Shown in pieces: positions 30,585 through 51,725 of a stretch of DNA of 64,000 nt (position 1 is the first letter of the stretch; every line of letters starts with the position of its first letter). The translations under genes were made by a program, and so were the position numbers. Below the pieces are notes generated by a model. That model did not search any database. It had not been told where the DNA came from and worked only from the letters and a program-made list of their open reading frames with translations. This DNA comes from Solitalea lacus (GTDB lineage Bacteria; Bacteroidota; Bacteroidia; Sphingobacteriales; Sphingobacteriaceae), in the NCBI RefSeq assembly GCF_022014595.1, contig NZ_CP091740.1:3956200-4020199 (forward strand), in the 5' to 3' direction.

Positions 30585-33410
30585 TTACAAACATTCGTCT
30601 AACAAATAAACGATTGATTCATAGTTTTTACCAACTGCTTCTGACATAGCCATTTCACAAGTTTTAGCACTTGAATAATAGCCTTCGTATTCCTTGCATT
30701 TTACTTCTATAGCTTCAATATGAGTTGCAGATTTGGTCAATTCAGGAAATAAAAAGCCCCTGTCGCCTGCCATACCGCAACAACCCGCTGATAATGGTGT
30801 TGTTACAGATTCGGCCAATTGATTGGCTATTGACTGGAACTTACCTACCAAACCCATTTTTTGCAGCGAACATACAGGGTGTAAAACAATTTCTTTTTTC
30901 TTCTTTACTATCTGTGCTTTAGGTAAAACGTAGTCGGCCAAAAAATCAACGCTGTCAATAATATTCAACTTGTCGAATTTTCTCTTATTCTCTTCAGTCA
31001 ACACCGACCGACAATGGTGAAGTGTGTAAGTACAAGAACTTATATCAAGCACAACCGGCCATTTGCCGCCATCAGTCCAGCGCCAAATATCTTCAATCAT
31101 CTCATTTGATTTATGCTCGTAAGCTTTTGCAAATCCTTTGGATGAGTAAATCTGTCCACAACAGGTGTGTTCAATTTCTTCAGGAATATGCAAAGTTATA
31201 CCCACTTTATGAGCTACACTCATAAATGCCTCAATGGTATTTTTTTTTCCATCAACCGAAGCGCCCATTACTCTTGAAATGCAAGTTGGAAAATAAACTA
31301 CTCCAACTGTTCCATTGTCCAATTGAATGCTTTTATTCTTATAAGATGCTGAATTACTAACCTTAAGTTGCTCTGACCATAATGGCATTGCTGGAACCAC
31401 TTTTTTAATGGCTCCAGTAAGATTGGTCATAGTGGTTTTTCCAAACACCTTATTTACCCCATCTCCTATTGTTAGCCCTGCCTTTACCAAAGTGCTAACC
31501 GTTGTGAAATTCTTTGAAGAAAACAAAGCTATGCTATTGGAGAAATCTCCATGATTTTCCCTTCTAAGTCTCTTCACTAAATCACCCGTGTTAATATCGA
31601 CAGGACAGGCAGTTGCACACAATCCGTCAACAGCACAGGTATCCAAACCATCGTACTGATATTCCTGCAACAATTGTTGATATGATCCACTATCTCCCGA
31701 CTTTTTCAAATTCTGCAGTGCCCTTCTAACAACAATTCTCCGGCGAGGAGTCATTGTGAGGTTTCTGCTCGGGCATTTATGCTCGCAATAGCCGCATTCG
31801 ATGCATTTATCTACCTCTTCTTCAACTTGCGGCAGGTCTTTCAGATTTTTTATATGTGCTTTTTTATCCGCATTAATAATAACTCCGGGATTGAGCAAAT
31901 TATGAGGATCGACAACTGATTTAAGTTGCTTCATCACCTCATACAATTCGCCCCCCCATTCAGTTTCAATAAATGGGGCCATATTACGACCCGTTCCATG
32001 TTCAGCTTTCAATGTTCCGTCATACTTGTTCACCACAAGTTCAACCACTTTGTTTAAAAAGCGATCATAACGTTCAATCTCCGCTTCCGAATCAAACGCC
32101 TGCGTTACAACAAAATGAATATTACCATCTTTGGCGTGTCCAAAAATAATGGCATTATCATACCTAAACTCAGTAAATAACTGCTGCAAGTCGAGAATAG
32201 CGTCCCCTAATTTATCAACTGGGAATGCAATATCTTCCAAAATGACCGTAGTTCCGCTAGCTCTCACTGCTCCTACAGCGGGGAACATACCTTTTCTCAA
32301 TTTCCAAAGAAAATCTTGCTCAGTCTGATTGGTTGTAAACTGAGGAGCATTAATCAGTGATATTCCTGATGATACTGCTAAAAATTTATCGACTTTACTT
32401 TTTAATTCATCCTGGCTGTTATCCTGAAACTCAACCAATAATGCCGCGGCCGTTTCTGGCAACGATTTTAATTGCTCAGGAACTCCTTTAATATGCTCTA
32501 TTGACCGCAATGAAGCACGATCCATCAGCTCAACAGCCTCTGCCCCGGCAACAGTCAAAGGAACAATGGCCTGACAGGCATCGTAAATAGTTTGAAAATA
32601 AAGTAGAGAAGTAGCTTTATACGGGTAATCAGCAATAGTATTCAAAACAGCTTCTGCAATAAACCCTAAAGTACCTTCGGCCCCTATTAAAAGATGGGCT
32701 AAAATATCCAGTGGTTCATTGTAATCAATAAATGAATTGACAGAATAGCCTACTGTGTTTTTAGTTTTATATTTTCTCCGCACCAAGGCCGTCAGCCGTT
32801 CATTCCCGACTATAGATTGACGTAATGATTTTATACCCTCGTAAATCTCCGGACACTCAATTTCAAATCGGCCGTAGTCTTCCTTTCGCTCTGTAGAATA
32901 CACCTTTCCATTAGGAAGGATAAAACGAATATACTTTGTAGTATGATACGAATTGTTAACCACACCACAGCACATTCCGCTAGAGTTATTGGAAAGAATG
33001 CCACCCATCATGGCAGAGTTAATGCTTGATGGATCCGGACCAATTTTCTTTTTATAGTTTTTAAGACGGGCATTTACCATTGCACCTATCACACCGGGTT
33101 GTACCCGTACCGTTATCCCATCTTCTTCAATAGTAACCCTATCCCAATACTGGCTCAAGTCGACCAAAATACCATCTGTAATCGACTGGCCTGACAAACT
33201 GGTGCCACCAGTACGAAAAGTTAGCGGTATTGAATTTTGATGAGAAAATTCAAACAAACGAATTATTTCCAATTCAGTTTGCGGCAATACTATGGCTTTG
33301 GGTTGCAGGTGATAAAATCCTGCATCAGAGGCGTAAGAAACCAAATCTATAAGACGGGTTTTAATACGATCTTTAGGTAAAATCGACTCTAATTCTTTTC
33401 CAATCTCCAT
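30585..33410 (-). CDS. FAD-linked and Fe-S oxidase, D-lactate dehydrogenase-like
   Basis: The protein has 941 residues. It has an N-terminal FAD-binding PCMH domain (TFRTGGTSLSGQSITDG; GPDPSSINSAMMGGILSNNSSGMC), a FAD-oxidase C-terminal domain (FGHAKDGNIHFVVT, EHGTGRNMAPF), two 4Fe-4S motifs (CIECGYCEHKCP; CAVDGLCATACP), and a C-terminal half with CCG motifs (HTCCGQIYSSKG; SAGCCGMAGDRG). This is the layout of the Dld-II/YdiJ group, membrane-associated oxidases of D-lactate or D-2-hydroxyglutarate. MurQ, encoded in the same strand series, releases D-lactate from MurNAc 6-phosphate, so D-lactate is the favoured substrate. It starts 56 bp after the symporter stop codon. Confidence 0.8.
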   Translation of the reverse strand: MEIGKELESILPKDRIKTRLIDLVSYASDAGFYHLQPKAIVLPQTELEIIRLFEFSHQNSIPLTFRTGGTSLSGQSITDGILVDLSQYWDRVTIEEDGITVRVQPGVIGAMVNARLKNYKKKIGPDPSSINSAMMGGILSNNSSGMCCGVVNNSYHTTKYIRFILPNGKVYSTERKEDYGRFEIECPEIYEGIKSLRQSIVGNERLTALVRRKYKTKNTVGYSVNSFIDYNEPLDILAHLLIGAEGTLGFIAEAVLNTIADYPYKATSLLYFQTIYDACQAIVPLTVAGAEAVELMDRASLRSIEHIKGVPEQLKSLPETAAALLVEFQDNSQDELKSKVDKFLAVSSGISLINAPQFTTNQTEQDFLWKLRKGMFPAVGAVRASGTTVILEDIAFPVDKLGDAILDLQQLFTEFRYDNAIIFGHAKDGNIHFVVTQAFDSEAEIERYDRFLNKVVELVVNKYDGTLKAEHGTGRNMAPFIETEWGGELYEVMKQLKSVVDPHNLLNPGVIINADKKAHIKNLKDLPQVEEEVDKCIECGYCEHKCPSRNLTMTPRRRIVVRRALQNLKKSGDSGSYQQLLQEYQYDGLDTCAVDGLCATACPVDINTGDLVKRLRRENHGDFSNSIALFSSKNFTTVSTLVKAGLTIGDGVNKVFGKTTMTNLTGAIKKVVPAMPLWSEQLKVSNSASYKNKSIQLDNGTVGVVYFPTCISRVMGASVDGKKNTIEAFMSVAHKVGITLHIPEEIEHTCCGQIYSSKGFAKAYEHKSNEMIEDIWRWTDGGKWPVVLDISSCTYTLHHCRSVLTEENKRKFDKLNIIDSVDFLADYVLPKAQIVKKKKEIVLHPVCSLQKMGLVGKFQSIANQLAESVTTPLSAGCCGMAGDRGFLFPELTKSATHIEAIEVKCKEYEGYYSSAKTCEMAMSEAVGKNYESIVYLLDECL

Positions 33411-33465: not shown

Positions 33466-34974
33466 TTATATTTCCACTTCCTGAGTAATAATAGTTTTGC
33501 TTGTAAATACTGCTTTAGATTGACGGCTTATCATCAACAATAAAGAATAGGTAACCAATGAGTTAATTACAATTAGCTCAAACCCCATTGAATACCCGAA
33601 ATAAGCTTTGGCAAATTGTTCCGCCAGGTAAGTAATAATCGGCGAACCAATACAAATAAACGGAACCCATTTATCGGCAATAGACCTTTTGGTAATCATA
33701 CCAAATGCAAACAAGCCAAGCAAGGGCCCATATGTATATCCTGCAGCTTTGAATATTGCATTTACTACAGAATCGTCATTCAGCACCTTAAATATTAATA
33801 CAACCAGTAGCATAATTACTGAAAAAACAATGTGCACTGTATGACGAGCTCTCACCAGCTTTTTTTCGTCCTGATCCTTTTTCTTAGCAAAACCTAAAAA
33901 ATCAACACAGAAAGAAGTGGTTAAAGCCGTTAAAGCTGAATCAGTAGTAGCGAAAGTGGCTGCAGTTAAACCCAGCATAAATACAATTGCCGGCAATGCT
34001 CCTAAATGTTTTAAGGCTATTTCAGGGAAAAGGTGATCAGGAGTCCCTAAGGCAGCAACTGATAAATTATTGGCCTCTGCATAGGTATATAACAATGCTC
34101 CCACGCTTAAAAAGAAGATATTCATTATCACAAAAATCCCGGTAAAGGTGAGCATGTTCTTTTGAGCTTCACCAATGTTTTTGCAACTCAGATTTTTCTG
34201 CATCAAATCCTGATCAAGCCCTACCATGGTTAGGGTGATAAAGATTCCGCCTAAAAATTGTTTCAAAAAGTGATTCTTATTACCCATGAAATCCTCCCAG
34301 AAGAATAATTGAGAATATGTACTGCTCTTTACAGTTTCAATTGTTTGAGCAACATTCAGGTTGAGACTTATTGAAATAAAGTAAATTGATAAGACTACTG
34401 ATGATAAAAGAAAAACGGTTTGTAAAGTATCAGTAATAATAATTGTTTTAAGTCCGCCTTTAAAAGTGTAAGAAAAAATCAAAAGCAAGCAAATGGCAAT
34501 AGTTACCCAGAACGGAACATTCCATGCATCAAAAATAAACTTCTGCAAAACGATAACGACAAGATATAGCCTAAAGGCTGAACCTATTGTTCGTGATATC
34601 AGGAAAATCATTGCTCCTGATTTATAGCTCCAGAAACCAAATCGTTCTTCCAAATATGTATAAATCGATATTAGATTAATACGATAATACAATGGGAGTA
34701 AAACCGTTGCCACAAGTATAAATCCAACTGCATTTCCCAGAACAAACTGAAAATAACCGAAACCACTGTTGTGTACCGCTCCTGGCACGGAAATAAATGT
34801 CACTCCTGATAAAGCGGTACCAATCATTCCGAAAGCAACGAAATACCATTTTGAGTTTCTGTTGGCAATAAAAAAACTCGAATTATCTGATGAGCCCTTT
34901 GAAGTTACATAAGAGATAATTGTTAAGAGCAAAAAATACCCTATCAGAAAGCAAAGCAAAGCTACCGACGACAT
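33466..34974 (-). CDS. Sodium:solute symporter (SSS family), candidate MurNAc/amino-sugar importer
   Basis: The protein has 502 residues and about thirteen membrane helices. SSS-family signatures include TALSGVTFISVPGAVHNSGFGYFQFVLGN, DTLQTVFLLSS and GLTAATFATTDSALTALTTSFCVDFLG. It uses the sodium gradient to import a small solute across the inner membrane. Its position 45 bp downstream of murQ makes MurNAc or a muropeptide-derived sugar the likely cargo. Oral Bacteroidota also have a dedicated MurNAc importer next to murQ. The substrate is inferred, not read from motifs. Confidence 0.85.
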   Translation of the reverse strand: MSSVALLCFLIGYFLLLTIISYVTSKGSSDNSSFFIANRNSKWYFVAFGMIGTALSGVTFISVPGAVHNSGFGYFQFVLGNAVGFILVATVLLPLYYRINLISIYTYLEERFGFWSYKSGAMIFLISRTIGSAFRLYLVVIVLQKFIFDAWNVPFWVTIAICLLLIFSYTFKGGLKTIIITDTLQTVFLLSSVVLSIYFISISLNLNVAQTIETVKSSTYSQLFFWEDFMGNKNHFLKQFLGGIFITLTMVGLDQDLMQKNLSCKNIGEAQKNMLTFTGIFVIMNIFFLSVGALLYTYAEANNLSVAALGTPDHLFPEIALKHLGALPAIVFMLGLTAATFATTDSALTALTTSFCVDFLGFAKKKDQDEKKLVRARHTVHIVFSVIMLLVVLIFKVLNDDSVVNAIFKAAGYTYGPLLGLFAFGMITKRSIADKWVPFICIGSPIITYLAEQFAKAYFGYSMGFELIVINSLVTYSLLLMISRQSKAVFTSKTIITQEVEI

Positions 34975-35019: not shown

Positions 35020-35823
35020 CTATTTAGCAGCACTAATTGCCTTACGTACGCTTCCGTGTTTTTCAAGCAATTCTGCTGCTACCGTCCTGTTCAAGCCGGT
35101 TTCTTTCATGATAATATTGATGCCGCGATTATAAAGCTTATGGTTGGTAAACTGCATGTCAACCATCTTGTTTCCTTTAACCCTTCCCAGCTGAATCATA
35201 ACAGAGGTGCTAAGCATATTCAAAACAAGCTTTTGTGCTGTTCCGGCCTTCATGCGTGTGGAACCTGAGACAAACTCAGGCCCAACGACAACCTCTATAG
35301 GGTAGTTGGCAAGAGCAGCAACCGGACTACCAATATTGCAAACAATGCATCCGGTTGAAATACCCACATTGTTAGCAGTTTGCAGTCCGCCAATTACGTA
35401 AGGTGTTGTTCCTGAAGCAGCAATACCAACAACCACATCCTTCTCGTTAATATCATACTCCAAAAGATCTTTCCAAGCTTGCTCGATATTATCCTCAGCA
35501 AATTCAACCGCTTTACGAATTGCTTTATCTCCTCCGGCAATAATTCCTATAACCAAATCAAACGGAACACCAAATGTTGGAGGGCATTCAGATGCGTCAA
35601 GAACGCCTAAACGCCCACTGGTACCCGCTCCAATATAAAACAGACGCCCTCCTTCCTTCATCTTTTGAGCGGTAACAGTTGCAAGCTTTTCAATTTGAGG
35701 AATTACCTTACCCACAGCATCTGGCACTGACCTGTCCTCATTATTGATATTAACCATGATATCGCGCATGGTCATTTTTTCCAAATGATTGTAATTTGAA
35801 TCTTTCTCTGTCGTCAACTCCAT
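35020..35823 (-). CDS. murQ: N-acetylmuramic acid 6-phosphate etherase
   Basis: The protein has 267 residues and one SIS domain (FYIGAGTSGRLGVLDASECPPTFG; GIAASGTTPYVIGG). E79 and E110 keep the spacing of the two catalytic glutamates described in E. coli MurQ. The C-terminal GSTRMKAGTAQK motif is present. The reaction splits the lactyl ether of MurNAc 6-phosphate into GlcNAc 6-phosphate and D-lactate in the cytoplasm. It lies between the nagZ-like and symporter genes. A second copy is at 56521 and is about 70% identical by eye. Confidence 0.95.
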   Translation of the reverse strand: MELTTEKDSNYNHLEKMTMRDIMVNINNEDRSVPDAVGKVIPQIEKLATVTAQKMKEGGRLFYIGAGTSGRLGVLDASECPPTFGVPFDLVIGIIAGGDKAIRKAVEFAEDNIEQAWKDLLEYDINEKDVVVGIAASGTTPYVIGGLQTANNVGISTGCIVCNIGSPVAALANYPIEVVVGPEFVSGSTRMKAGTAQKLVLNMLSTSVMIQLGRVKGNKMVDMQFTNHKLYNRGINIIMKETGLNRTVAAELLEKHGSVRKAISAAK

Positions 35824-35870: not shown

Positions 35871-38816
35871 TCAGTTCACTAAGGAACGGTAAATCACTTC
35901 CTGTATATCAGGACGAACATTCAGCTTACCCAAATTATTATTATCTCCTCCATCAGGGCAAACTCTGTTCGATAAGAAAATGTATAACAAATCATATTTT
36001 GGATCGGCCCATACACAAATGCCCGTAAAACCTGTATGCCCGTAGGTTAACGGTGATACACTTAACGATGGATAGGGAGCTTTACTGGTGGCATTGTCCT
36101 TTTCAGGTTTATCAAACCCTAATCCTCTTCTGCTGATCTCACTTTGATATGAAGTGAATAAATCAATTGTCGATTTTTTAAGGTATCGTATGCCATTTAG
36201 CTCGCCTCCATTTAACAGCATTTGGTAAACCTGTGCCAAATCATAAGCGTTACTGAACAATCCGGCATGACCGGCAACGCCACCGAACATAGCTGCTCCG
36301 GGATCATGAACATCACCTCTTAATTGTTGCAAACGGAAATACTTTTCCTTCTCGGTTGGAGCAATAACCTCTACAGGAAAGTGCTGCAATGGCGAAAATG
36401 AAGTACTCGTCATACCCATTGGCAGATAAAACGTATTGCGGACATAATCACTTAGCGATTGCTTAGTAATACTGGCAACAATTTCACCCAGTAGAATAAA
36501 ATCATTATCACTGTAGATGTACTTACCTGCCACACCAAGTTTACTGTTATCAACTCTACTATAGATAGTATCTAAATAGCTTTTACGCATGTACATATTT
36601 TCGGCAATGCGCACACTATAAGCTTCTGATGGAGAATTGCTGTAATAACCCGACTTTGGCTTACCTGATGCATCTAAGGTTTCTTTATAAAACGGTATAA
36701 AGGAAACCAAACCAGCTTGATGTAATAAAAGGTCCTTTACTTTAATTTTCGCCTTTTCAGCATTACTTAGCCAAGGAACATATAAACCAATGGGGGCGTC
36801 TAAATTCAACCTACCCTCTTCATAAACCTTCATCACAGCCATGGTAGTTGCTGTGGTTTTTGTAACCGAAGCTAAGTCGTAAACCGTTTCGGTAGTTACC
36901 TTTTCAGTTGAGTTGTAATTGGTGGTTCCGTAAGCTTTTAAAAACCCAACTTTGCCTTTTCTGGCCACCAAAACAACACAACCAGGAGTTGCACCCTTTT
37001 CAATTGCATTTGCTGCAATAGAATCAATTTTTGTTAGCGTTTTGGGGTTTAAACCTGCTTCCTGAGGACTTGAAACAGGAAAGTAGTAATTATTGGTAAT
37101 TCCACTTCCATAAACATATTCATTTGAAACAGTTACAGGCAATTTACCCTTGGCCGTAATCTTTCCTGTTAACAAATCAATTGCAACCTGGTGCATGAGA
37201 GGATCATCCTCATAACAAGCCACCAAATTTTGCGCAACGGGCATTTTGGCAATTAAATACGGATTACCAAAAACCAAACTTAACGTTTTAGGTTGCTGTT
37301 GAAGCTTGGTTAATAACGACAAAGCCACATTACTGATTCCAAAATTATTAGCAGGGTATTTTTTGTATTGATGCACCCCTAATACTATTGCCTCATAACC
37401 TTTTGCAAGTTTTTGAATAAGCGTTGCTGCTTGCTCTTCACTTGCCTGATAGTCGAAGTAGAAGCAATCCACTTTAAACTCCTTTTGTAACTGCTCTGCA
37501 AAGGAATTTGATTGAGAAAGGCCAAATCCTACGTAAGCAAGTCTTTTAACTTTATTCAATGGAATTAACGAGGAATCAGTTTGTTTTAATAATGTGATTG
37601 CCTGCCTGTAAACATTTTGCTTAATTACGGCTACATCTTTGTTCAAATCTTCTTTTAACTGAGCGATTTGAATAGGTTTTAAGGTATCTAACCCTAAATT
37701 ATACTTAGCCAATAACACTTTTTTAACCTTTTCATTAACCTCTGCCTTCGTAAGTTTCTTCTGACGAATGGCTTTTAAAGTGCTTTTAATACTTCCTTTT
37801 ATATCGCCCGGTAAACACAACATATCATTTCCGGCAATCAATGACTGCACTGCGGCAGCGCCCTGCGGATAAAACTTAGCCACACCTTTCATTTCAAGTG
37901 CATCAGTAAAAGTAAGACCCTTAAATCCAAGCTGATTTCTCAACAAACCGGTCACGTTTCTTTGAGAAAGTGAAGTTGCCTGATTTTTAGTAGTATCAAT
38001 TGCAGGAATGTACAAATGAGCTACCATCACACTTCCAACACCTTCATTTATCAACTTTTTAAATGGATACTGCTCTAGAGAATCTAACTGATTAAATGAT
38101 TTATTGATTACTGGCAAATCATAATGTGAGTCAACTGAAACATCTCCATGGCCTGGAAAATGCTTAGCACAGGCCATTACGCCGGCATTTTGCATACCTT
38201 TCATCAACTGGGTACCGAACAGGGCAACTTTATATTTATCTTCACCAAATGACCTGAAGTTGATAACTGGATTTAACGGATTGTTATTGATATCCACAAC
38301 CGGGGCATAGTTTACATGAATACCAATACGCTTGCATTGTTCGCCAATGGATTTCCCCACTTTGTAAGCGACTGCCGCATCGGCAACAGCGCCAATCGTT
38401 AATTGATCCGGAAATGGAGACACGTCAGAAAAGCGCATTCCTACTCCAGTTTCCCCATCAACACAAACCATCAATGGAATCGATGAAATTCCCTGCATCC
38501 TGTTAAGAAACTCAGCTTGTTGCTCGGCTATTCCCTGAAATAGGCAAACAGAACCTATTTTATATTTTTTAATATGCTTTGCGATGTCTTCTTCGTAAAA
38601 CACAACTTCTTTGCCTTTACGTTCAGAGGCTCTCAAAACAAAAAGCTGGGCTATTTTTTGCTTTTTAGACAGTTTTTTGAATACACTGTCTACCCAAAAA
38701 TTGCCCCTTGGAGAAGGCTGCAAAAACTGCTGCCCGAAGGCAGCAGTAGTGCAAAAAAATAAAACAATAAATAAACATTGCTTTACCATACAACCTAACA
38801 TCAATTTTTTCTTCAT
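35871..38816 (-). CDS. NagZ-like GH3 beta-N-acetylhexosaminidase fused to a serine beta-lactamase-like domain
   Basis: The protein has 981 residues with a Sec signal peptide (about 1-29). The GH3 N-terminal domain (about 40-400) has the NagZ motif KHFPGHGD with the dyad D229-S-H231 and the nucleophile in FTDALEM (D305). A GH3 middle domain follows (to about 580). From about 585 there is a class C beta-lactamase/esterase-like domain with S650-V-T-K653, a YSD motif and GHTG. It should remove GlcNAc from muropeptides in the periplasm or at the surface, while the serine domain could act on peptide or ester bonds. The fusion is known in Bacteroidota. It is the first gene of the unit with murQ and the symporter. 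Confidence 0.9.
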   Translation of the reverse strand: MKKKLMLGCMVKQCLFIVLFFCTTAAFGQQFLQPSPRGNFWVDSVFKKLSKKQKIAQLFVLRASERKGKEVVFYEEDIAKHIKKYKIGSVCLFQGIAEQQAEFLNRMQGISSIPLMVCVDGETGVGMRFSDVSPFPDQLTIGAVADAAVAYKVGKSIGEQCKRIGIHVNYAPVVDINNNPLNPVINFRSFGEDKYKVALFGTQLMKGMQNAGVMACAKHFPGHGDVSVDSHYDLPVINKSFNQLDSLEQYPFKKLINEGVGSVMVAHLYIPAIDTTKNQATSLSQRNVTGLLRNQLGFKGLTFTDALEMKGVAKFYPQGAAAVQSLIAGNDMLCLPGDIKGSIKSTLKAIRQKKLTKAEVNEKVKKVLLAKYNLGLDTLKPIQIAQLKEDLNKDVAVIKQNVYRQAITLLKQTDSSLIPLNKVKRLAYVGFGLSQSNSFAEQLQKEFKVDCFYFDYQASEEQAATLIQKLAKGYEAIVLGVHQYKKYPANNFGISNVALSLLTKLQQQPKTLSLVFGNPYLIAKMPVAQNLVACYEDDPLMHQVAIDLLTGKITAKGKLPVTVSNEYVYGSGITNNYYFPVSSPQEAGLNPKTLTKIDSIAANAIEKGATPGCVVLVARKGKVGFLKAYGTTNYNSTEKVTTETVYDLASVTKTTATTMAVMKVYEEGRLNLDAPIGLYVPWLSNAEKAKIKVKDLLLHQAGLVSFIPFYKETLDASGKPKSGYYSNSPSEAYSVRIAENMYMRKSYLDTIYSRVDNSKLGVAGKYIYSDNDFILLGEIVASITKQSLSDYVRNTFYLPMGMTSTSFSPLQHFPVEVIAPTEKEKYFRLQQLRGDVHDPGAAMFGGVAGHAGLFSNAYDLAQVYQMLLNGGELNGIRYLKKSTIDLFTSYQSEISRRGLGFDKPEKDNATSKAPYPSLSVSPLTYGHTGFTGICVWADPKYDLLYIFLSNRVCPDGGDNNNLGKLNVRPDIQEVIYRSLVN

Positions 38817-39068: not shown

Positions 39069-39764
39069 TCATAGCAACTCATCAATACGAACGAATTTGT
39101 AGCCGCTTTTTACAAGCTCATTTATCAATCCTGGCAGATAATGATAGAACTTATCTGTTCTTCTTTGGTCGGTTCCAATGTGTATAAGCAGTATAAAACC
39201 ATTCAATCCATTTTCAGAAGCAGCCTTTTTCTGAATTGATTTATAAATTTCATCTGAACTCAGGTACTGCTTACCCATTTCAGGCCAGGTATAGTCAGCC
39301 GTAGATCGTGTACCAGGTGTAAAGTTTATCAACTGCAACCCTTCCTCCTTAGTCCAATGAACAATCGAGGTGTTGTACCATTCATATGGAGGCAGAAAGA
39401 ATTTTGCATCATCTTTACTAATTCCAAAATGAGCCATAGCTACATAACTATTTGTCAAATCATCAACAAACTTTTTATAGTTAATCAACAAGCTATCTCG
39501 TTTCATCCAATCACAGTACAACAAATGCTCATCAGAATGCGAACCCAAATAATTACCCTGACGCCGCAATCTTTTTACCAACGATTTTAATTTCGGATTA
39601 CGGTAAAAGCGTCCCGTGAAAAAGAACGAAGCTTTAATATTGGCATCTTGCAAGGTTTTATGTACAAAACTACCTCCATCGGCGTATTCATCTCCGGTAA
39701 ATACCAGTGCGATTTCATGCCTTAAAGTATCACCCCTTATTATTGCTCCATAGGTATCAACTAC
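39069..39764 (-). CDS. CE4 polysaccharide deacetylase domain in the -1 frame of the GH9 gene, without a start codon
   Basis: There are 231 codons. The frame opens right after a stop codon and has no ATG or GTG before conserved domain sequence (HEIALVFTGDEYADGG). The first TTG, at 39653, is already inside the domain. The NodB/CE4 core is complete: TGDE (motif 1), HSDEH (motif 2), PPYEWYN (motif 3) and LLIHIGTD (motif 5). The region begins exactly where a -1 slip on A AAA AAG (39770-39764) would carry ribosomes past the GH9 stop at 39763-39761. The product is then an 836-residue GH9-CE4 protein. A lost base in an A-run, by mutation or assembly error, would give the same picture. CE4 enzymes remove N- or O-acetyl groups from glycans. 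Confidence 0.8.
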   Translation of the reverse strand, partial: VVDTYGAIIRGDTLRHEIALVFTGDEYADGGSFVHKTLQDANIKASFFFTGRFYRNPKLKSLVKRLRRQGNYLGSHSDEHLLYCDWMKRDSLLINYKKFVDDLTNSYVAMAHFGISKDDAKFFLPPYEWYNTSIVHWTKEEGLQLINFTPGTRSTADYTWPEMGKQYLSSDEIYKSIQKKAASENGLNGFILLIHIGTDQRRTDKFYHYLPGLINELVKSGYKFVRIDELL

Positions 39765-41578
39765 TTTTTTCTAAGGAACTCCTCCTGAGCCCCTTGTTCT
39801 TTTGCGGCAAGCAAGTAGATCAACGATGCTGTCCCATCCATTGTGGGCTCATTGGTACTGTAATCACCATAATCATCATGATAAACAGCCAAATCCGATT
39901 GAAAAACTGCATAGTCATCCCGCTGATAAAGCTTTATCCCTTTCAAACCTTTATAGATTGTCCCGTAAACTGGACCATCCACCAAGCCTCCATCAATTGG
40001 AAAATCATGCTGTTGTGTAAATGCTGAATGAGGATTCTTAGGAGTATCACCATTGCCCGGCAACCCGTAAACCATACTAGTTCCCCATGGATTGCACCCT
40101 AAAAGCCAATCGAAGTTGGCTTGCTCCAACTCTGCAAATGACTTATCATTTGTTAATCTTGCATACAATGAACATTGAATCGCAAAAGATGTGGTTAGAT
40201 TATTTGAGCACCAGATGAACGGAATCCCTCTGTTGAAAGCGTTTTGGGAGGCTTTTTCAGCAACTCTCAAAATACCCTGTTTGTAGTAATCTGTTAAAAT
40301 CGCACGATCCTTAGCGTTTGCTTTTTTACCAAGTTCGGCGTGTCCAAAATTATGAAACGGATACCATTGATAATGCCTGGCCGTATCTGCCCCCATCCAA
40401 GGAGTAACTTTTTCTTGCATGCTGTAATTCCAAGCATCGTTATAGTATTTCTTAACTCCATTTAGTTGAAACAGAGCTGCAGCACCCAATTCCATATCAT
40501 CAACCCAGTTATCCTCTTCATAAAAATAAGGTGCCCTATTTGGAGCTGTCTGACAAACTCCGGGCTTCTGAACACCAAGAGAATACGCCGACAATGCCCT
40601 TTCTTGCAATAACTGCACTAACTGAGCATCCTTTCCCTTATACAATTGTGCACCTAAAGCGAAAACACTTACAAATTTTCCGGCAGTAGAAGCCACTCCG
40701 GTTGACCTGTTTTGATACTTACCCAAACCCTGAGGCTTACCTGTTGCAAAATACACCGGACGACCTTTTCCTCCTCCTAATCCATAGTCAATTTTATCTT
40801 CATTTGGCAAACGCATAATTTGATGATCCCGATCATCTGCCAATTGATTAAACATCCAATCAGCACGTGGATGCATTTTCAACAGCCAATCAATCCCCCA
40901 TTTTGCCTCATCCAATACATCCTTTATTCCGTTTGTTCCATCTATCCCGTTGGCCAAATATTTATCAGTAAATACAGCAGGAAAATCGCGATAAGCCGCC
41001 AACAAATGATAGGTAGCATTAGCCGATGTGGTTACATATTGTAAATAATCAGAAGCATCATGCCAGCCACCCCAAACATCAATGCGCGTAGAATCAGGCA
41101 TTGGCCCATACATTGTATACCCATCAGTAGTATGGCAAGAGTCTTTCAAAAAAGGATTAAAACCGCTTCGTTGCTGACGCATGTAGCGCAAAGCGAAATC
41201 AGCTGTTCCTTTATACACATCAGAAGAAATTTTAAATACAGGAGATTTGGCTTTTCCTGCCTTAAGATAAAAACTACCGGTTTGTTTGAATGAAGTAAAA
41301 TTCAATCGATATGATTCCTTAAACGGACCGTAGGCACCAAACGCCTTTCCTGCCTTGTTTTTGAAAACCGTCTTATCATCAATAGCATTCACCAACTCGA
41401 ACTCGTCAATTTTTTCTTGAGATAAACATCCCCAAACTGCCACCTTTACACCTAATGGAGTATAGCCCAGTTGATTGATACGAATCCATTCTTTAGTATC
41501 GTCGTCATTTTTAAATGATAGAAGAAGGATTGCTATCATCAACATTGCGACTTGTTTAACTAATACATACTTTTTCAT
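39761..41578 (-). CDS. Glycoside hydrolase family 9 with N-terminal Ig-like domain
   Basis: The protein has 605 residues in the zero frame. It has an N-terminal hydrophobic signal (about 5-22), a CelD-type Ig-like domain (about 30-118) and a GH9 catalytic barrel with GGWHDASDY (catalytic D174 and D177 region), NPHSAF and a C-terminal YSTNEPTMDG with the acid E577. GH9 contains endoglucanases and also exo-beta-glucosaminidases. Beside GH20, NagZ-like and CE4 activities, an amino-sugar substrate such as deacetylated chitin or murein glycan is more likely than cellulose. It starts 11 bp after the GH20 stop. The reading frame ends directly on a slippery sequence leading into the CE4 domain. Confidence 0.88.
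   Translation of the reverse strand: MKKYVLVKQVAMLMIAILLLSFKNDDDTKEWIRINQLGYTPLGVKVAVWGCLSQEKIDEFELVNAIDDKTVFKNKAGKAFGAYGPFKESYRLNFTSFKQTGSFYLKAGKAKSPVFKISSDVYKGTADFALRYMRQQRSGFNPFLKDSCHTTDGYTMYGPMPDSTRIDVWGGWHDASDYLQYVTTSANATYHLLAAYRDFPAVFTDKYLANGIDGTNGIKDVLDEAKWGIDWLLKMHPRADWMFNQLADDRDHQIMRLPNEDKIDYGLGGGKGRPVYFATGKPQGLGKYQNRSTGVASTAGKFVSVFALGAQLYKGKDAQLVQLLQERALSAYSLGVQKPGVCQTAPNRAPYFYEEDNWVDDMELGAAALFQLNGVKKYYNDAWNYSMQEKVTPWMGADTARHYQWYPFHNFGHAELGKKANAKDRAILTDYYKQGILRVAEKASQNAFNRGIPFIWCSNNLTTSFAIQCSLYARLTNDKSFAELEQANFDWLLGCNPWGTSMVYGLPGNGDTPKNPHSAFTQQHDFPIDGGLVDGPVYGTIYKGLKGIKLYQRDDYAVFQSDLAVYHDDYGDYSTNEPTMDGTASLIYLLAAKEQGAQEEFLRKK
39764..39770 (-). promoter_or_regulatory. Candidate -1 ribosomal frameshift site (A AAA AAG)
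   Basis: The heptamer is in the correct register (AGA AAA AAG TAG) and the next zero-frame codon is the stop. It is the same heptamer used by E. coli dnaX. A downstream stem is not obvious; only a weak pairing of CCUAU with AUAAGG is seen. Confidence 0.5.
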
Positions 41579-41589
41579 TCTAATTAAAA

Positions 41590-44130
41590 TTAGTTATTCA
41601 CAAGCGTTGTTATTTTTCCACCACGTCCCTTAGAATCCAGGGCCTGAAGTTTAATAGTACCCTTGGATTCAATAGGTTGATTATACACAGCGCTCTTCTG
41701 ATTAGGATTTGAACCATCGGTAGTATACACTATTTTAAAGCCGGGAAGCTGAATATTGGCCATTACTTTTCCGTTTTGAATTACTGCCCCCACAGGAGGA
41801 ATTCTGTATTGATACCCCCCTGAATAGTAATCCAACCTGGGCAACTCTCTTTTTCCTATTACGTTAGCAAACGTAGAAAATGCCTGATTATACATTTTGT
41901 AAAATTCGACACTATCTTTTACCTGAGCCCAACGAGGATCCTGAGCCCATGCACGCTCTGCCAATCCTAACAGCCTTGGCAATAGCATGTATTCCAATCG
42001 TTCAGGAGTTTTTATTTTTTCTGTCCACAATAGGCCTTTAATGCCAATGATGTTTGATTTCCCATAATCTGTAAGACGGTCTTTTCCTACAAACAACGTT
42101 TGCTTAACCGGATTACCATTAGCATCCTGCGTGGAATTTCGGTAATAATCAAAAGGAATAAAACCAAATGGTTTATCAATATTAACATAACCTCCCCATC
42201 GGTGACCGGGCTCGTCAGCCGATTTAACATGAGCTAAATCAAAATAAAAGTTACTTACACAGGCGAGTACCACTTTGTAACCGGCGTTAGCCAGTCGATA
42301 AGGTAAATCTTCATAACTACCCCCAATCACATTATTCCATACATCTACCTGAAAATTATTACCGCTAAACTGGGGATTGGGAACAAATCGTTTTTTGCCA
42401 TCGATGGCGGTCTTTCGTAAAGCAATCTCTTCCCAGCCTGACAATATTATGTTTTTAGATTTGGCTAACTCATCAAGCTTATTCACATAATAATACCATA
42501 GGTCGTCTGTAGTTTTCATACCGGGAGTATTCTTAATTAACTGCTGGGCAATGGGTGATTTTTGCCACGAACCAACAGGAACCTCATCTCCTCCAAAGTG
42601 AATGGATTTTAATGAAATTCCAGCCTGCATATACATTTCTTTGATCTCCTCAACCACCTCTCCAAGAAAATGATAAACCGAAGGCATGGCTACACACATC
42701 ACATTATCATTATAATATTGGGCAGAAAGATAAACCGATTTATCATTCACATCACGCAGCATGAATTCTTCAGCTTCTTTCGTTTTACCTTCTTTCATTA
42801 AACGCTCATAGCGAGCATCCATAGCTTTTATGGCAGCTCGTGCATGACCAGGAGTTTCAATTTCAGGGATTACCTGAATATGCCTCTCATCTGCATACCT
42901 GAGGATTTCTATGAAATCAGATTTACTATAAAACCCGGTATTTAAACCTTCATTAACATCCGGACCAGCCCCATATACTGGACGAAGCATTTCTTTATCA
43001 TCAATAGTATGACCTCGCTTGGCACCAATTTGTGTTAATTCTGGCAAGGAAGGAATTTCCAACCGCCAGGCTTCATCATCACATAGATGAAAGTGCAGTA
43101 TATTCAACTTATACAGGGCCATTAAGTCAAGTACTTTTAACACCTCTTCCTTGGCATGAAAATTCCTGGCAACGTCCAGCATAAAGGCCCTGTAGGCAAA
43201 ACGCGGAGAATCAATAACTGAAACCAGGGGAATATTGAGCTTTGATTGTTTTTGCTTCCATGCATTTGATGGCATTAATGTTTTCAATGACTGAACTGCA
43301 TAAAAAGCGCCTGAAGCTGAGGAAGCTTCTATTTTCACCTCTTCAGCACTTACATTTAAACGATAAGCCTCACTTGGCAAACCATCAACCTTTTGAAAAT
43401 GAATAGCTTTTCCTACCACTGCTGATTCGGAAGGATTATATTTTTTGCCGGTTAAGTTCTCGATCTCATTTGCCAGATATTCAGCCTCATTACGAAATGT
43501 TGCATCCGTAAAAATACCCGAAGCACTACTTAATGAAAAGCTACCGGTTGTTTCCTTGTAAGAAACCGGACTGGGGAAAACCTTTATTAAGTGATCCGCA
43601 TCAAGCACTTCAATTGATTTATTTTGCTCATAAAGCACTTCTGGACTTTGAAATAATTTATTTTCTGTTGGCTGTAAAACCTTAAATTTTTTTAATGCTA
43701 TGCCTTTAGTTTTATCAGAATCCCAAACCCAGTATACACCAGCCGGAACATCTGTAAAGTTTACATACTGACCATTGGTTACGAAAGAAATATGGAGACT
43801 ATCTTTGGGAGGAAGAGATTTAAAAAATTCTGACGGGAACAATCGATATAAATCCCCGTTAACACGTTCAACCTTAACTCTTTTATCCACAGAGTTTATA
43901 TCAATGGTTTTCATATAACTGAAATAAATATTCCAGCCAGATTTAGGTAGAGTTTCAATGCCATTATTACTTATTTCAAACTGACACAGCGATTTAACCT
44001 GACCTTTGTAGTTATTATCAATCAATTTCCACTCAATATACAAATCACTGGTATTGAATTTATTGACCGACTGAGCAAAGGTCGAAATACTTAAAAAAGC
44101 AGTCCAAATTGTTACTATCCAGAATTTCAT
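41590..44130 (-). CDS. GH20 beta-N-acetylhexosaminidase (chitobiase type)
   Basis: The protein has 846 residues with a Sec signal peptide (about 1-19). It has an N-terminal CHB_HEX carbohydrate-binding domain (about 25-155), a GH20b domain (about 180-305), a GH20 barrel with the catalytic pair in HFGGDEVPVGSW (D515-E516), and a C-terminal chitobiase_C-like Ig domain (YTTDGSNPNQKSAVYNQPI). It removes terminal GlcNAc or GalNAc from oligosaccharides in the periplasm or at the surface. An attenuator-like hairpin precedes it. Confidence 0.93.
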   Translation of the reverse strand: MKFWIVTIWTAFLSISTFAQSVNKFNTSDLYIEWKLIDNNYKGQVKSLCQFEISNNGIETLPKSGWNIYFSYMKTIDINSVDKRVKVERVNGDLYRLFPSEFFKSLPPKDSLHISFVTNGQYVNFTDVPAGVYWVWDSDKTKGIALKKFKVLQPTENKLFQSPEVLYEQNKSIEVLDADHLIKVFPSPVSYKETTGSFSLSSASGIFTDATFRNEAEYLANEIENLTGKKYNPSESAVVGKAIHFQKVDGLPSEAYRLNVSAEEVKIEASSASGAFYAVQSLKTLMPSNAWKQKQSKLNIPLVSVIDSPRFAYRAFMLDVARNFHAKEEVLKVLDLMALYKLNILHFHLCDDEAWRLEIPSLPELTQIGAKRGHTIDDKEMLRPVYGAGPDVNEGLNTGFYSKSDFIEILRYADERHIQVIPEIETPGHARAAIKAMDARYERLMKEGKTKEAEEFMLRDVNDKSVYLSAQYYNDNVMCVAMPSVYHFLGEVVEEIKEMYMQAGISLKSIHFGGDEVPVGSWQKSPIAQQLIKNTPGMKTTDDLWYYYVNKLDELAKSKNIILSGWEEIALRKTAIDGKKRFVPNPQFSGNNFQVDVWNNVIGGSYEDLPYRLANAGYKVVLACVSNFYFDLAHVKSADEPGHRWGGYVNIDKPFGFIPFDYYRNSTQDANGNPVKQTLFVGKDRLTDYGKSNIIGIKGLLWTEKIKTPERLEYMLLPRLLGLAERAWAQDPRWAQVKDSVEFYKMYNQAFSTFANVIGKRELPRLDYYSGGYQYRIPPVGAVIQNGKVMANIQLPGFKIVYTTDGSNPNQKSAVYNQPIESKGTIKLQALDSKGRGGKITTLVNN

Positions 44131-45064: not shown

Positions 45065-46600
45065 TTATTGCTGAGAAAACCACATTTCTTTAGTATGGTA
45101 ATCAAGATCTAGCCCTCCAAACACCTTTAAGGCTGCTGCATTCCAAACATACTCTGAATTATAACGAGGTCTGAAACGGTAAGCGGGTTTGGCGTTATTA
45201 TCAGGAAATAAAGATGCAGGAAGAGTAAATCCTGTAAATACGTTACTATCATAATGATAGCGACGTAAATCACACCAGGTTTCAGTAAAGCCCCAACCAA
45301 ACTGAGCAATGTACTTTTGCAGTAAAATCATTTTTAATGTTAAGCTGTTAGCATCTGTTGGCACAATTGCTGTTTTGCCAAGAAAAGTGCTTTTATCAGC
45401 TGCTTTAATTTGATTTGCTGCCACAGAAGTGTATTGGTTAACAAAGTCAATATGACTATCAATGCCTTTTTTGTAAGCATCCAATGCCGTTGCCTTGTCG
45501 TTTTTCAAGAATGCCGCTTCTGCTTTAATGAATTGTAGCTGAGAATAGGTCATTAATGGAAAACGAACATCATTGTTAAACAAATATTTACCCGCCCCAA
45601 CAGTAGTGGCGGCAGCCGTACCCCAAAGTGTGTTTGGTCTTTGATTGGTGGTTAATGTCCCATAACCAGCATTCGGATTCAAACCATAATATGCTCCATC
45701 AGGAGAAGATGAAAGCATTAACGCTAAACGAGGATCGGTAACCCCTCCAAAAACAGAACCATTTAGCAGGCTAAGTATAAAATTTGACTGACGGAATGTG
45801 CCAAGGTTATTACGCAATGGGCCAAAAAAATTGGTATCATCATTCACTTTTCCATTAAATGGCACGCTGGCATCATCAGCATTTGAAGCTAAAGCTTTAT
45901 CCACATATTCAATAACTTTAGCAGGATCATAACTTGATTTGTTTGATAGGTGATGTGCATTTAAGGCTAATAACCCGTTAACAAACTTTATCCATTTGCT
46001 ACGGTCCCCTTTGTACATCAGGTCTCCTTTAGCGGCATAATCAGCTGAGATTGCTCCATCAGTTCGATTTAATAAAACCATAGCTGAATCACACAGTCTT
46101 CTCACTTCAGAATAAGCAAACTCCTGGGTATCATAATCAAACACATCGCGTTTTGGATCAAAAGCCTGTTTGATAATTATTTCACCATGATAATCTGTTA
46201 ACGATTGCCATCCCCATGCCTTTAAGGCATAACCAATACCTGCCAAGTCCCAGCGCTCTTGAGCTAATGACAGGTTAATCATATCCTGAAGATTAATACC
46301 CATCTTCCAGTAAACACTACGCCATTGCTGCCCTGAGTTATCACTTGCGGCCTGGTAACCATGTCGATCCCAAGTATCACCTGCAGAATTTGATACAAAA
46401 TTCTGAACGTATTTACCCAAGAATCGTGAATCATACTGGACACCCAATGCCAAATTGGATTCCATAGAAGCTAAGTACAAATTGGGAGATACCGACTGAG
46501 GTCCATTAGGGTTCTCATTTACATCAAGGTATTTTTCACAACCGGTTGCAGTAACCATAATACCGGCAGCTGCTATGATTGAATAGAATATTTTCTTCAT
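45065..46600 (-). CDS. susD: SusD/RagB-like outer-membrane glycan-binding lipoprotein
   Basis: The protein has 511 residues. A lipoprotein signal with Cys in TGCEKYLDVNENPNGP is typical of the SusD-like_2 group. TPR-like helices follow, with MLQKYIAQFGWGFTETWCDLRRYHYD near the C-terminus. It captures oligosaccharides and lids the SusC-like channel encoded 30 bp upstream. Confidence 0.92.
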   Translation of the reverse strand: MKKIFYSIIAAAGIMVTATGCEKYLDVNENPNGPQSVSPNLYLASMESNLALGVQYDSRFLGKYVQNFVSNSAGDTWDRHGYQAASDNSGQQWRSVYWKMGINLQDMINLSLAQERWDLAGIGYALKAWGWQSLTDYHGEIIIKQAFDPKRDVFDYDTQEFAYSEVRRLCDSAMVLLNRTDGAISADYAAKGDLMYKGDRSKWIKFVNGLLALNAHHLSNKSSYDPAKVIEYVDKALASNADDASVPFNGKVNDDTNFFGPLRNNLGTFRQSNFILSLLNGSVFGGVTDPRLALMLSSSPDGAYYGLNPNAGYGTLTTNQRPNTLWGTAAATTVGAGKYLFNNDVRFPLMTYSQLQFIKAEAAFLKNDKATALDAYKKGIDSHIDFVNQYTSVAANQIKAADKSTFLGKTAIVPTDANSLTLKMILLQKYIAQFGWGFTETWCDLRRYHYDSNVFTGFTLPASLFPDNNAKPAYRFRPRYNSEYVWNAAALKVFGGLDLDYHTKEMWFSQQ

Positions 46601-46630
46601 TTTCTAATTTCAGATTTAATATTTAACAAA

Positions 46631-49600
46631 TTATAACCCCAACTTCACACCGAAGTTAAAACCACGCGGCATTGGGAAGTTTCCAAAATCAAAGCCCGTA
46701 GCTCCACTACCACCCACTGCTGCAGAGTTTCCGTTAACAACTGGATCTAAACCTGAATAATTAGTAATAATAAATAGGTCAGTACCGGTAACAAAGAAAC
46801 CTAATGACTTAACTCCTTTGATTTTAGCTAATTTCGCTTGTGGCACAGTATAGCTTAAGGTGATATCCTTTAAACGCAACCAATTAATATCCTTCTCAAT
46901 GAAGTCAGCTTCGCTCAGTGCACCTGTTGCAGAGTAATAATCAGTTGAACTGCTAGCTGGAATAATGCTAATATTATTTTGAGTAGGGAATTCAGAATTC
47001 TCCAAACCATCTTTCATTACGCCTTTGAAAACAACCGGCTCATAACGGTTTAGAGTGCGCTTACTTAATCCTTTTACTGTTAATAAGTGCTCTGTTGCAT
47101 TGTAGATGTCTCCACCTTTACGAATGTCTAAAAGGAAATTCAAGCCCCAGTTTTTATAATTAAATGTATTTGTCAAACCAACGGTAAAATCAGGGTTACG
47201 ATCACCAACAGGCGTCCAAACACTTTGACGTAAAGGCAAACCTGTCGATGGGTTAATAAGAATATCTCCCTTATTGTTACGTTGGTAAGCAAACCCTGAA
47301 AAAGTAGTAATTGCTTGACCAGGAACAGCTCCGTTTCTGACGTTTCCATACACCCAGGTATCAGAAACGTAATACTCTTGTAATCCGGCAGGAAGAGTTA
47401 GTAATTTATTCCATGTTTTGGTAAAGTTAGCCAGCACATCCCAAGTAAAATCTTTACCCTTAACAGGAGAACCATTTAACTGCAATTCAACACCTTTATT
47501 TTCTAAATTACCACCATTCTGAACACGCAATACAGCCCCGGTAGCATAACTTAATCGTAAATCTTTTACTATTTGATCAGAAGACTCAGAGCGGTAATAG
47601 GCCACATCCATCCCCAATCGATCTTGGAAAAATTTAACCTCTGCTCCAAATTCATATGAAGTTGTTTTCTCCGGCTTTAGGTTAGGGCTTGGGCCTGTAA
47701 ACCCGTATCCATACCCTCCGCCAGTGGTAGGCTGGCTTTCCAAAGCAGGAATCAAACTATAAGGAGGCGCATCTTTACCAACTTGTGCCACAGAAGCTTT
47801 TAGTTTACCATAAGACAAGACTTGATTGTTTTTCAACCAAGGTAATTCAGTGAATATAAAGCTTAATGATGCCGAAGGATAGAAGAACGAACGGTTCTTG
47901 ATTGGCAGGGTAGAAGACCAGTCATTACGGCCAGTAGCACTAAAATAAACAAGATCATTATAGTTTAGCGAGAAAGAGCCGAATGCACCCATCAAACGTC
48001 GCTCTGTTAATCGCGTAACGGCTCTTTGTTTGGTAATGTCCGTATTGTTAATGGATACAAACTCCGGATCAAGGAAGCCAATGCCACTTACAGCAGTATT
48101 AAAAGTATTCCAGCTGTTTAATGCACTTCCCAACTTTACGTTACCGCTAAACTTACCAAACTTTTTATCTGCAGTAACATAATATTGTATATTCAGATTT
48201 TTGGTATTGCTTACTGCGTTATCCAATATACCACCGTTAGCTGCAGCATAATTTGACTGAGGATGGCGCAATACCTGATTTTCAGTCGTGTAAATATCAA
48301 ATCCTATATTACCAACTCCTTTTAACCATGGCAATGGAGAGAAGTTTAACGCTAAGTTCGAAGCAATACGGTTGGTTTTTGACTGTATTTTATTCTTATC
48401 TACATTGAAGTAAGGGTTTTCAGCTTCAGAGGCAAAATTACTGGTCAAAAACTTACGACTACCATCAGCATTAAGATAAACACTTGCATCATCAGTACTA
48501 GGCCACAATAACAAGCCTAACATTGGCCCATAATTATTATTAATAGCATCTCCACCTTTAAATACCTGCGTATTATCAGAATTGGTATAATTGAAAGAAA
48601 GATCACTACTAAAGAATTTTGAAATCTTAGCGTTAGTCATTAAGGACAAGTTGATCTTATCTAAAGCAGAACCTGGAACAACTCCGCTTTGATTTGTATA
48701 GCTAGAGGATGCACGATAAGTCAGCCTTTCAGATCCACCTTCGAGTGCCAGGTTATGGCGCTGAGTAAATGCAGTTTGAAAAAACGGGCTAATGTTATCG
48801 TGTAATACTGTTCCTTCTGCATATTTAGGACCGAAATAGTTAAATGTATTTAGATCCGAAGCCCCTAATATTCCCTGGCCATAAACTTGTTGAACAACCG
48901 GATATTTATTGATTTTATCAAACCGGAAATCATTACTGTAATTGACACGAGATTGACCAGCTTTACCTCGTTTTGTAGTAATTACAATTGCCCCACTGGC
49001 CGCATCAATACCATAAAGCGCAGATGCTTCAGGCCCCTTTAGCACCGTAATTGACTCAATATCATCAGGATTAATATCCGCTCCGCGATTTGTAAAGTCC
49101 AAAGAACGATTGGCAAACATAATATTCGAGTTCTGATCAGAAACAAAACCTGAAGTATTAAACGTTTGGTTATCAATCGGCAACCCATCAACAATAAATA
49201 ATGGTTGATTGCTACCACTTAATGAATTAATACCTCGAATAGTTACTGATGCAGAAGCACCTGGCAATCCAGAGGTATTAGTTACTGTTAAACCAGCAAC
49301 ACGTCCTTGCAAGGCATTTACAAAGTTTTCTCTTTGAGTTTCTGCAATCGCTTTTCCCTTAACTTCAGTTACAGAATATCCCAGAGCCCTTTTTTCTTGT
49401 TTAATACCCAAAGCAGTAACAACTACTTCCCCTAATGCTTTGGCGTCCTCCACCATTTGAACATTAATTGTAGCGTTTGACCCTACAGTCCTTTCAGCAG
49501 TTTTAAACCCTACAAATTGAAACACTAACACATCTTTTGCGCCAGCGTTAACGGAATATTCTCCAGAGGTATTAGTTTGAGCACCTTTAGTGGAACCTTT

Positions 49601-51048: not shown

Positions 51049-51401
51049 AATTGTTTTTGTTTGTTTATTACATCAATCGACTACAAAATGCAAACTTCAC
51101 CCTTCCAAACATAAAATATTATTCTGAAAAAATGCAAAAACACGCAAGTAACAAAATGATTACAACCGATAAAACTCCATAAAAGGCGTTAAAAGAAAGG
51201 ATTGACGCAATAAATATCAAAATCATGCAAAAAAACGCAAACTACAATACTAGTAAGCAAACCTTACAAAAAAGCAAAAAAACGCAAACTATCACTAGTT
51301 TAACTGATAACTTTTCAAGAAAAGAAGGGATTTAATAACCAGAAGGGAGATTTCACTAAAAGCACAAAAGGCCAGTATTTTCATACCGACCTTTCTTTGG
51401 G
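51049..51401 (-). promoter_or_regulatory. namZ promoter region with repeated candidate operators
   Basis: A TTTG-N21/22-TATGTTTG promoter of Bacteroidota type lies on the minus strand, with the -7 box at 51105-51112 and the -33 box near 51135-51138. The 18-mer GCAAAAAAACGCAAACTA (plus strand) occurs at 51227-51244 and 51274-51291, 47 bp apart. A degenerate copy (GCAAAAACACGCAAGTA) at 51134-51150 overlaps the -33 box, a position suited to a repressor. Confidence 0.5.
51364..51399 (-). terminator. Terminator-like hairpin after the last tRNA copy
   Basis: On the minus strand AAAGGTCGGTAT-gaaa-ATACTGGCCTTTT forms a stem with two G-T pairs just after the tRNA 3' end. Confidence 0.65.
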
Positions 51402-51474
<73 letters not shown>

Positions 51475-51524
51475 CTGTTGTAAATTTGAAAAAGAAAGGC
51501 CGACACTGTCGACCTTTTCTTGGG

Positions 51525-51597
<73 letters not shown>

Positions 51598-51652
51598 CTG
51601 TTGTAATTTTGAAAAATAAAGGCCGACACACTGTCGACCTTTTTTTCTTGGG

Positions 51653-51725
<73 letters not shown>

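Follow-up and report, generated by a model that had tools for sequence, protein, structure and literature searches.

A conserved slippery junction between GH9 hydrolase and CE4 deacetylase frames in Solitalea lacus and its relatives: a probable -1 frameshift signal of the dnaX type

Layout of the GH9-CE4 junction

The window considered here is a stretch of 64,000 nucleotides of the Solitalea lacus genome (contig NZ_CP091740.1, positions 3,956,200 to 4,020,199), on whose minus strand a gene for a glycoside hydrolase of family 9 (GH9) adjoins, in the -1 frame, a sequence encoding a domain of carbohydrate esterase family 4 (CE4). The GH9 open reading frame starts with ATG and ends CTT AGA AAA AAG TAG, placing the heptamer A AAA AAG in register and directly before the zero-frame stop. 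The -1 frame continues from G39764 for 231 codons (VVDTYGAIIRGD...) to a stop at 39071-39069, such that a slip of one base on the heptamer would yield a GH9-CE4 protein of 605 + 231 = 836 residues. This CE4 frame is closed 6 nt upstream of G39764 and contains no ATG, GTG or TTG before the CE4 core, the first possible start being a TTG at 39653, within the domain. The original prediction, made from the DNA letters alone, took the junction to be a -1 frameshift site; its coordinates and lengths proved correct on direct reading of the sequence, and the reading frame bore out its claim that no ATG or GTG lies ahead of the core and that the first TTG is internal. It overlooked a Shine-Dalgarno (SD)-like element, AGGAGGAG, a short way upstream. 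The features of the junction are as follows.

39761-41578, minus strand: GH9 hydrolase, zero frame, 605 residues; its N-terminal segment is hydrophobic and was judged by eye to be of export type; the product expected without a slip
39779-39786, minus strand: SD-like AGGAGGAG, with a computed duplex to the 16S rRNA tail
39764-39770, minus strand: slippery heptamer A AAA AAG, in register
39761-39763, minus strand: zero-frame stop TAG, adjoining the heptamer
39069-39764, minus strand: CE4 (NodB-type) domain, a predicted deacetylase; 231 codons long, read in the -1 frame, its core preceded by no start codon

Distances of 11 and 8 nt separate the ends of the two GGAG words of AGGAGGAG from the A6 run, and the duplex computed for the element with the genome's own 16S tail has an energy of -10.3 kcal/mol. 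The string GGAG-N8-14-AAAAAAGTAR occurs 4 times in the 4.40 Mb genome, as against 3 times for a reversed-pattern control, and so is not rare by itself. Only the window site connects long frames, of 504 codons before and 231 after; the other three occurrences have 6-27 codons before and 2-13 after. A whole-genome scan for further copies of the cassette joining long frames found none besides the window site.

Conservation of the junction among relatives

Of 251 genomes searched within the family, 87 contain CE4 at E <=1e-20; the GH9 orthologue is present at E <=1e-120 in 90, comprising the same 87 and genomes G017, G173 and G203. Added to the 87 family loci were the best 80 of at least 467 confirmed relatives among named GTDB loci, a set that leans to close relatives, and 15 loci from a class-wide sample in which 19 of 395 genomes matched. 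Of the resulting 182 classified loci, some represent the same genome fetched twice.

GH9 lies directly before CE4 in 167 of the 182 loci and does not in the other 15. Once identical CE4 sequences were removed, 146 distinct GH9-CE4 loci were left, the window included. Among them CE4 is fused in frame to GH9 in 82, lies in the -1 frame in 62, and in the +1 frame in 2, both +1-frame copies having a start codon and a hydrophobic N-terminus of their own. The 82 fusions answer the search for fused GH9-CE4 proteins that the original prediction had proposed. Two loci, L122 and L150, show the reversed order, with a CE4 that has its own N-terminus preceding a same-strand GH9.

An in-register A-type slippery run is present within the overlap in 61 of the 62 distinct -1-frame loci, again including the window, in support of the frameshift reading; the CE4 of the lone locus without such a run, L087, is internally broken. 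The runs are A6G in 42 loci, A7G, A8G and A7T in one each, A9G and A9C in three each, and A10G in ten. All 42 A6G loci carry GGAG 8-15 nt upstream (32 words at 11 nt, 12 at 8 and 6 at 14, two per locus being possible), and in 39 of them the stop follows AAG immediately. The A7G, A8G and A7T loci likewise have SD-like elements, of -10.8 kcal/mol or stronger.

We assessed the GGAG word by redrawing synonymous codons for the same peptides: 10.1 of 42 loci would be expected to contain it, against the 42 observed. With one locus per 70%-identity cluster the figures are 4.2 expected and 19 of 19 observed. Deep kinship is not removed in this way: clustering at 60% identity leaves only 6 clusters, with 6 observed against 1.6. 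The corresponding expectation for the heptamer, for whose presence the loci had been chosen, was set aside, as was a log P that ignores kinship. Elsewhere in the 44 A6G, A7G and A8G loci, in-register A_AAA_AAG is found 10 times in 33,919 codons. Of the 82 fused genes, 17 have GGAG within the final 45 nt; the median best SD-type duplex of the fused genes is -4.3 kcal/mol, versus -10.8 in A6G loci.

The stops of the 42 A6G loci are TAA (22) and TAG (20), never TGA. Across the 44 loci with A6G to A8G runs the GH9 stops are TAA in 23, TAG in 21 and TGA in none, and the CE4 stops TAA in 30, TAG in 9 and TGA in 5. The missing TGA at the frameshift stop is possibly a release-factor effect on slipping.

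The split state is seen in Parapedobacter, Arcticibacter, Pedobacter, Pontibacter, Chitinophagaceae and others. On a quick tree of 145 loci, built without bootstrap, at least 19 changes between fused and split are needed, a number that counts the two +1-frame loci as split and depends on open forks. Several loci lie close to the boundary between the two states. L034 is a fusion with A7 at the same place as the window's A6, beside A6G kin; L006 is an A11 fusion that retains CGGGAGG; and the sister loci L071 and L073 have, respectively, an A11 run in one continuous frame and an A10 run in a split pair. The poly-A branch may be switching at the DNA level while slippage masks the switch. A class-level relative, L182 (CE4 identity 40%), has an A10G run directly before TAG, and a TGA is reported inside its CE4 match.

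A possible hairpin downstream of some sites

Seven Pedobacter and Chitinophagaceae loci share a stem of GCCTCC/GGAGGC type 5 nt after the slip site; in one locus, L025, it has become GCCCC/GGGGC, changed on both sides of the stem (seen by eye, without pair-counting). Fold z scores of these seven loci are weak, at -0.8 to -1.9, and their hairpin accordingly rests on shared place and shape. As a general part of the signal a hairpin was rejected: A6G loci have a mean z of -0.75, with 6 of 42 below -2, the fused controls a mean of -0.01, with 3 of 82. Known cases of -1 frameshifting need not have both stimulators.

Selection on the CE4 frame, its starts and its loss

Ratios of nonsynonymous to synonymous substitution (dN/dS) were taken from pairs hand-picked from the tree, those with saturated dS being kept out of the medians. 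For CE4 the medians are 0.107 in A6G loci (9 of 15 pairs with finite dS), 0.081 in poly-A loci (3 of 4) and 0.080 in fusions (11 of 12); for GH9 they are 0.034, 0.035 and 0.046. By this measure the CE4 frame is under purifying selection.

Ahead of the CE4 core, 32 of the 61 A-run loci have no ATG, GTG or TTG, the window among them; 25 have GTG or TTG only and 4 an ATG. Where CE4 is encoded otherwise than behind GH9 in the same or -1 frame (17 loci), it always has a start of its own (ATG in 16, GTG in 1), followed by a hydrophobic stretch; such N-termini were judged by eye rather than with a signal-peptide program. The relatives are not, then, pairs of normally started genes without the heptamer, an outcome that would have spoken for two separate genes: 42 of the 62 -1-frame loci have exactly A6G, and half of the A-run loci are startless before the core.

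Four GH9 orthologues have no adjoining CE4 (in G017, G173, G203 and G006), and in none does A_AAA_AAG precede the stop. The site in G006 (locus L206) reads CCA GAA AAG TAG and is followed by FKRIDELFH, which resembles a CE4 C-terminus; the adjacent CE4 appears to have been lost together with the heptamer, judging from this one genome and its nine-residue remnant. G006 has a CE4 on another contig (L040), with its own ATG and a hydrophobic N-terminus. Locus L204 ends AAA AAA TAA with no CE4, and A-runs alone are therefore no proof of recoding.

The two protein domains

In the window Pfam identifies GH9 (PF00759, E 1.3e-68) with CelD_N (2.7e-17), and in the -1 frame Polysacc_deac_1 (4e-09, above cut-off). 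A predicted model of the CE4 domain, with a mean pLDDT (per-residue confidence) of 88.6, matches CE4 structures: Foldseek returned 59 PDB matches at E <=0.001, the best ones CE4, headed by a mutant of a CE4 pseudoenzyme and followed by other CE4 proteins. The canonical CE4 metal triad consists of the Asp of TFDDG together with HSxxH. HSxxH is invariant in 11 of 11 alignment rows and motif 1 is altered to FTG[DH][ED]; given this alteration and the pseudoenzyme as top match, the NodB-fold domain is a predicted deacetylase whose activity is not certain. Its best NCBIfam relatives, also among its best PDB matches, are the Bacillus peptidoglycan deacetylases PdaA/PdaB and PgdA, with which it shares the CE4 fold and HSxxH; it differs from them in scoring far under the NCBIfam cut-offs and in having FTG[DH][ED] where they have TFDDG. 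For GH9, a model of a fused homologue (mean pLDDT 70.2) matches GH9 structures, endoglucanases first and exo-glucosaminidases lower, and its substrate could be of either kind.

The ribosome of this genome

The 16S 3' ends, in the two of five copies considered, read ...ACCTCCTTTCT, and the anti-SD is present. The single rpsU found has AAAGGAGGTATATC upstream, pairing with the 16S tail at -19.3 kcal/mol, a strong SD as expected if bS21 autoregulates. A prfB-type +1 site, AGGAGGCATCTTTGAC, matched by the site pattern only once mismatches were allowed, links a short frame with 338 codons in the +1 frame, recognised by eye as RF2-like.

Bacteroidia ribosomes are reported to be blind to SDs, bS21, bS18 and bS6 sequestering the 16S tail, and nearly all Sphingobacteriales fall within the authors' criteria for rpsU autoregulation (PMC9976891). 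Even so, another study reported prfB frameshifting in 523 of the 726 Bacteroidia genomes it covered, without exception among its Sphingobacteriales, and its authors suggest that a pause allows the 16S tail to pair (PMC8710568).

Interpretation of the junction

Taken together, the conserved arrangement is most likely a real recoding signal and, in this genome, a ribosomal one, as far as sequence comparison can tell; we put at roughly 0.9 the probability that it is a dnaX-type signal for programmed -1 ribosomal frameshifting. A ribosome ending GH9 would meet A AAA AAG with AGGAGGAG 8-11 nt behind, where pairing of that element with the 16S tail could hold it while the lysine tRNAs re-pair one base back. 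Ribosomes that do not slip would be terminated at the adjoining stop, producing GH9 of 605 residues, and those that slip would continue into CE4 to make the 836-residue GH9-CE4 protein. The fusion may be the minority product, as the original prediction proposed. Slipping may also be the route by which CE4 leaves the cytoplasm, since here CE4 has neither a start nor a visible export signal of its own.

Several observations weigh against this interpretation. The window site lacks a downstream hairpin (fold z = +1.7), and a hidden anti-SD (PMC9976891) could weaken the proposed SD stimulator. Constraint on CE4 is weaker than on GH9, especially in A6G pairs (0.107 vs 0.034, compared with 0.080 vs 0.046 in fusions), one A6G pair reaching a CE4 dN/dS of 0.311. 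L206 still has an SD-like GAGGAG despite having lost CE4; two of the four genomes of this genus that were compared have neither GH9 nor CE4 at the thresholds used; and 15 of the 16 loci with A9 or A10 runs have no SD-like element stronger than -8 kcal/mol, L010 being the only one that does. Not all relatives, then, use an SD-driven route.

The last of these points is what would be expected of another mechanism, and the long runs (16 of the 62 distinct loci in the -1 frame have A9 or A10, and one has A8) recall transcriptional slippage, in which RNA polymerase adds an A within the A-run and some mRNAs encode the fusion; the GeneTack paper links such slippage to long A runs (PMC3711429). That paper, in the part drawn on here, quotes runs of >7, or of 8 and longer, and the window run is only A6; moreover an SD-like element at fixed distance, the register of the heptamer and the adjoining stop are relevant to a ribosome only. 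As the explanation of the window site we consider transcriptional slippage improbable.

Still less probable is a pair of coupled genes, with termination at TAG and restart within the CE4 frame. Overlapping frames are typical of coupled genes, and those A-run loci that do have a GTG, TTG or ATG before the core would allow a restart; the start-codon counts as a whole disfavour it, the window being one of the loci that offer no such codon. In addition, 37 of the 44 loci with A6 to A8 runs offer no start codon, whatever the frame, 4-12 nt downstream of a GGAG, a restarted CE4 would miss the hydrophobic N-terminus found in the 17 separately encoded relatives, and the 82 true fusions speak against coupled genes.

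The loss of one A from an ordinary fused gene, by recent mutation or by base-calling, was the alternative that the original prediction had raised, and although homopolymers are error-prone and the A7 fusion of L034 and the A11/A10 pair of L071 and L073 count in its favour, we give it next to no credence: A6G with adjoining stop recurs in 39 distinct loci of several genera, separately sequenced and all with the SD-like element, the CE4 dN/dS is low, which together with the conservation rules out sequencing error or a pseudogene, and the genome, with completeness estimated at 100%, is assembled in one contig.

Relation to known recoding systems

In E. coli dnaX the SD-like element is spaced about 10 nt from the slip site, and SD-like stimulators act from about 10-14 nt upstream. 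To our knowledge, conserved -1 frameshifts in ordinary bacterial chromosomal genes are few. The window shares with E. coli dnaX the heptamer, its register, the direction of the shift and the upstream SD-like element. Unlike dnaX, its frameshifted product is the long one, the zero-frame stop adjoins the site, no hairpin follows, and the product is an exported-type glycan enzyme. The dnaX signal as described in PMC3711429 combines A_AAA_AAG with an upstream SD-like element and a downstream stem-loop. The last has a possible counterpart in the seven Pedobacter and Chitinophagaceae loci described above. The two-ORF (open reading frame) dnaX genes of the GeneTack survey resemble the window in that the long product requires a -1 change; the gene is unrelated, and in 12 of the 17 there are poly-A stretches that the authors attribute to transcriptional slippage (PMC3711429); these dnaX genes are closer to the A9-A10 branch of GH9-CE4 loci than to the window. 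A point in common with prfB is recoding linked to an SD in a class, the Bacteroidia, whose anti-SD is hidden (PMC8710568); prfB differs in its +1 direction and its slip site and in being autoregulatory. The in-frame GH9-CE4 fusions of Pedobacter, Dyadobacter, Chitinophaga and others have the same domains in the same order but make a single product, for which recoding is not needed.

This kind of dnaX-like signal is already known; for the GH9-CE4 gene family no account turned up in the literature searched. The GeneTack survey covers 22 Bacteroidetes genomes, and the portion of it considered here names, under the terms searched, no GH9 or deacetylase case, an unnamed cluster in its supplements being possible (PMC3711429); nor is such a case named, under those terms, in the portion considered of a frameshifting review (PMC5009743). 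Full-text literature searches, which reach few subscription papers, returned no report of this frameshift or of one in a carbohydrate enzyme.

The loci offer dozens of natural alleles of one signal, directly comparable with each other: SD with A6G, possible hairpins, A9-A10 runs and fixed fusions. In a class whose ribosomes reportedly ignore SDs, the window site would join prfB as a case of SD-linked recoding, and it makes testable at what point in elongation the hidden anti-SD becomes free. Where split GH9 and 'polysaccharide deacetylase' genes show this arrangement, annotators should treat them as a single recoded gene. More speculatively, and in our estimate unlikely, the SD-like element could tie the frameshift to the availability of the 16S tail and so to bS21, the share of GH9 carrying the deacetylase rising when bS21 is scarce. 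Lineages could then be exchanging SD-driven slipping on the ribosome, slippage on poly-A and permanent fusion for one another as ways of setting the ratio of the two products. If so, ribosome composition would tune a cell-wall salvage enzyme.

The surrounding gene cluster

The junction lies within a minus-strand cluster at 30585-51048, whose other identified members are the following.

30585-33410, minus strand: FAD/Fe-S 2-hydroxyacid dehydrogenase-like protein (NCBIfam matches below cut-off)
33466-34974, minus strand: SSF sodium:solute symporter
35020-35823, minus strand: MurQ, N-acetylmuramic acid 6-phosphate etherase (TIGR00274, 322.7 bits, cut-off 302)
35871-38816, minus strand: GH3 with a serine beta-lactamase-family domain (the best NCBIfam matches, PBP4B and beta-N-acetylhexosaminidase, fall short of their cut-offs)
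41590-44130, minus strand: GH20, of the beta-hexosaminidase family; 11 nt separate its end from the start of GH9
45065-49738, minus strand: outer-membrane pair, SusD-like (45065-46600) and SusC-like (46631-49738)
49849-51048, minus strand: NamZ exo-beta-N-acetylmuramidase (PF07075, PF20732)

A chitin locus, our first guess, was dropped once NamZ, MurQ and the dehydrogenase had been identified. Of the 80 named loci only 12 had a match in their stored flanks to the window's GH20, GH3, MurQ, SSF or SusD, namely 9 to MurQ (each a -1-frame locus, two with SSF as well), 2 to GH3 and 1 to GH20; the neighbours are therefore not widely conserved. Twenty neighbour proteins picked from 11 loci included MurQ, GHL10, an amidase, NlpC/P60 next to an enolase-type protein, GH3, NagA and a ROK kinase, along with unrelated proteins. 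The cluster genes and the relatives' neighbours together indicate peptidoglycan amino-sugar salvage, and the cluster is likely a locus of this type, in which GH9 and CE4 would take part in processing peptidoglycan amino sugars. It may also use D-lactate released by MurQ, which the dehydrogenase-like protein could oxidise. The cluster also includes a DUF4397 protein; a DeoR-type regulator (29782-30525, plus strand) lies beside it, and three tandem tRNA-Met (cat) genes (51400-51725, minus strand) just beyond it.

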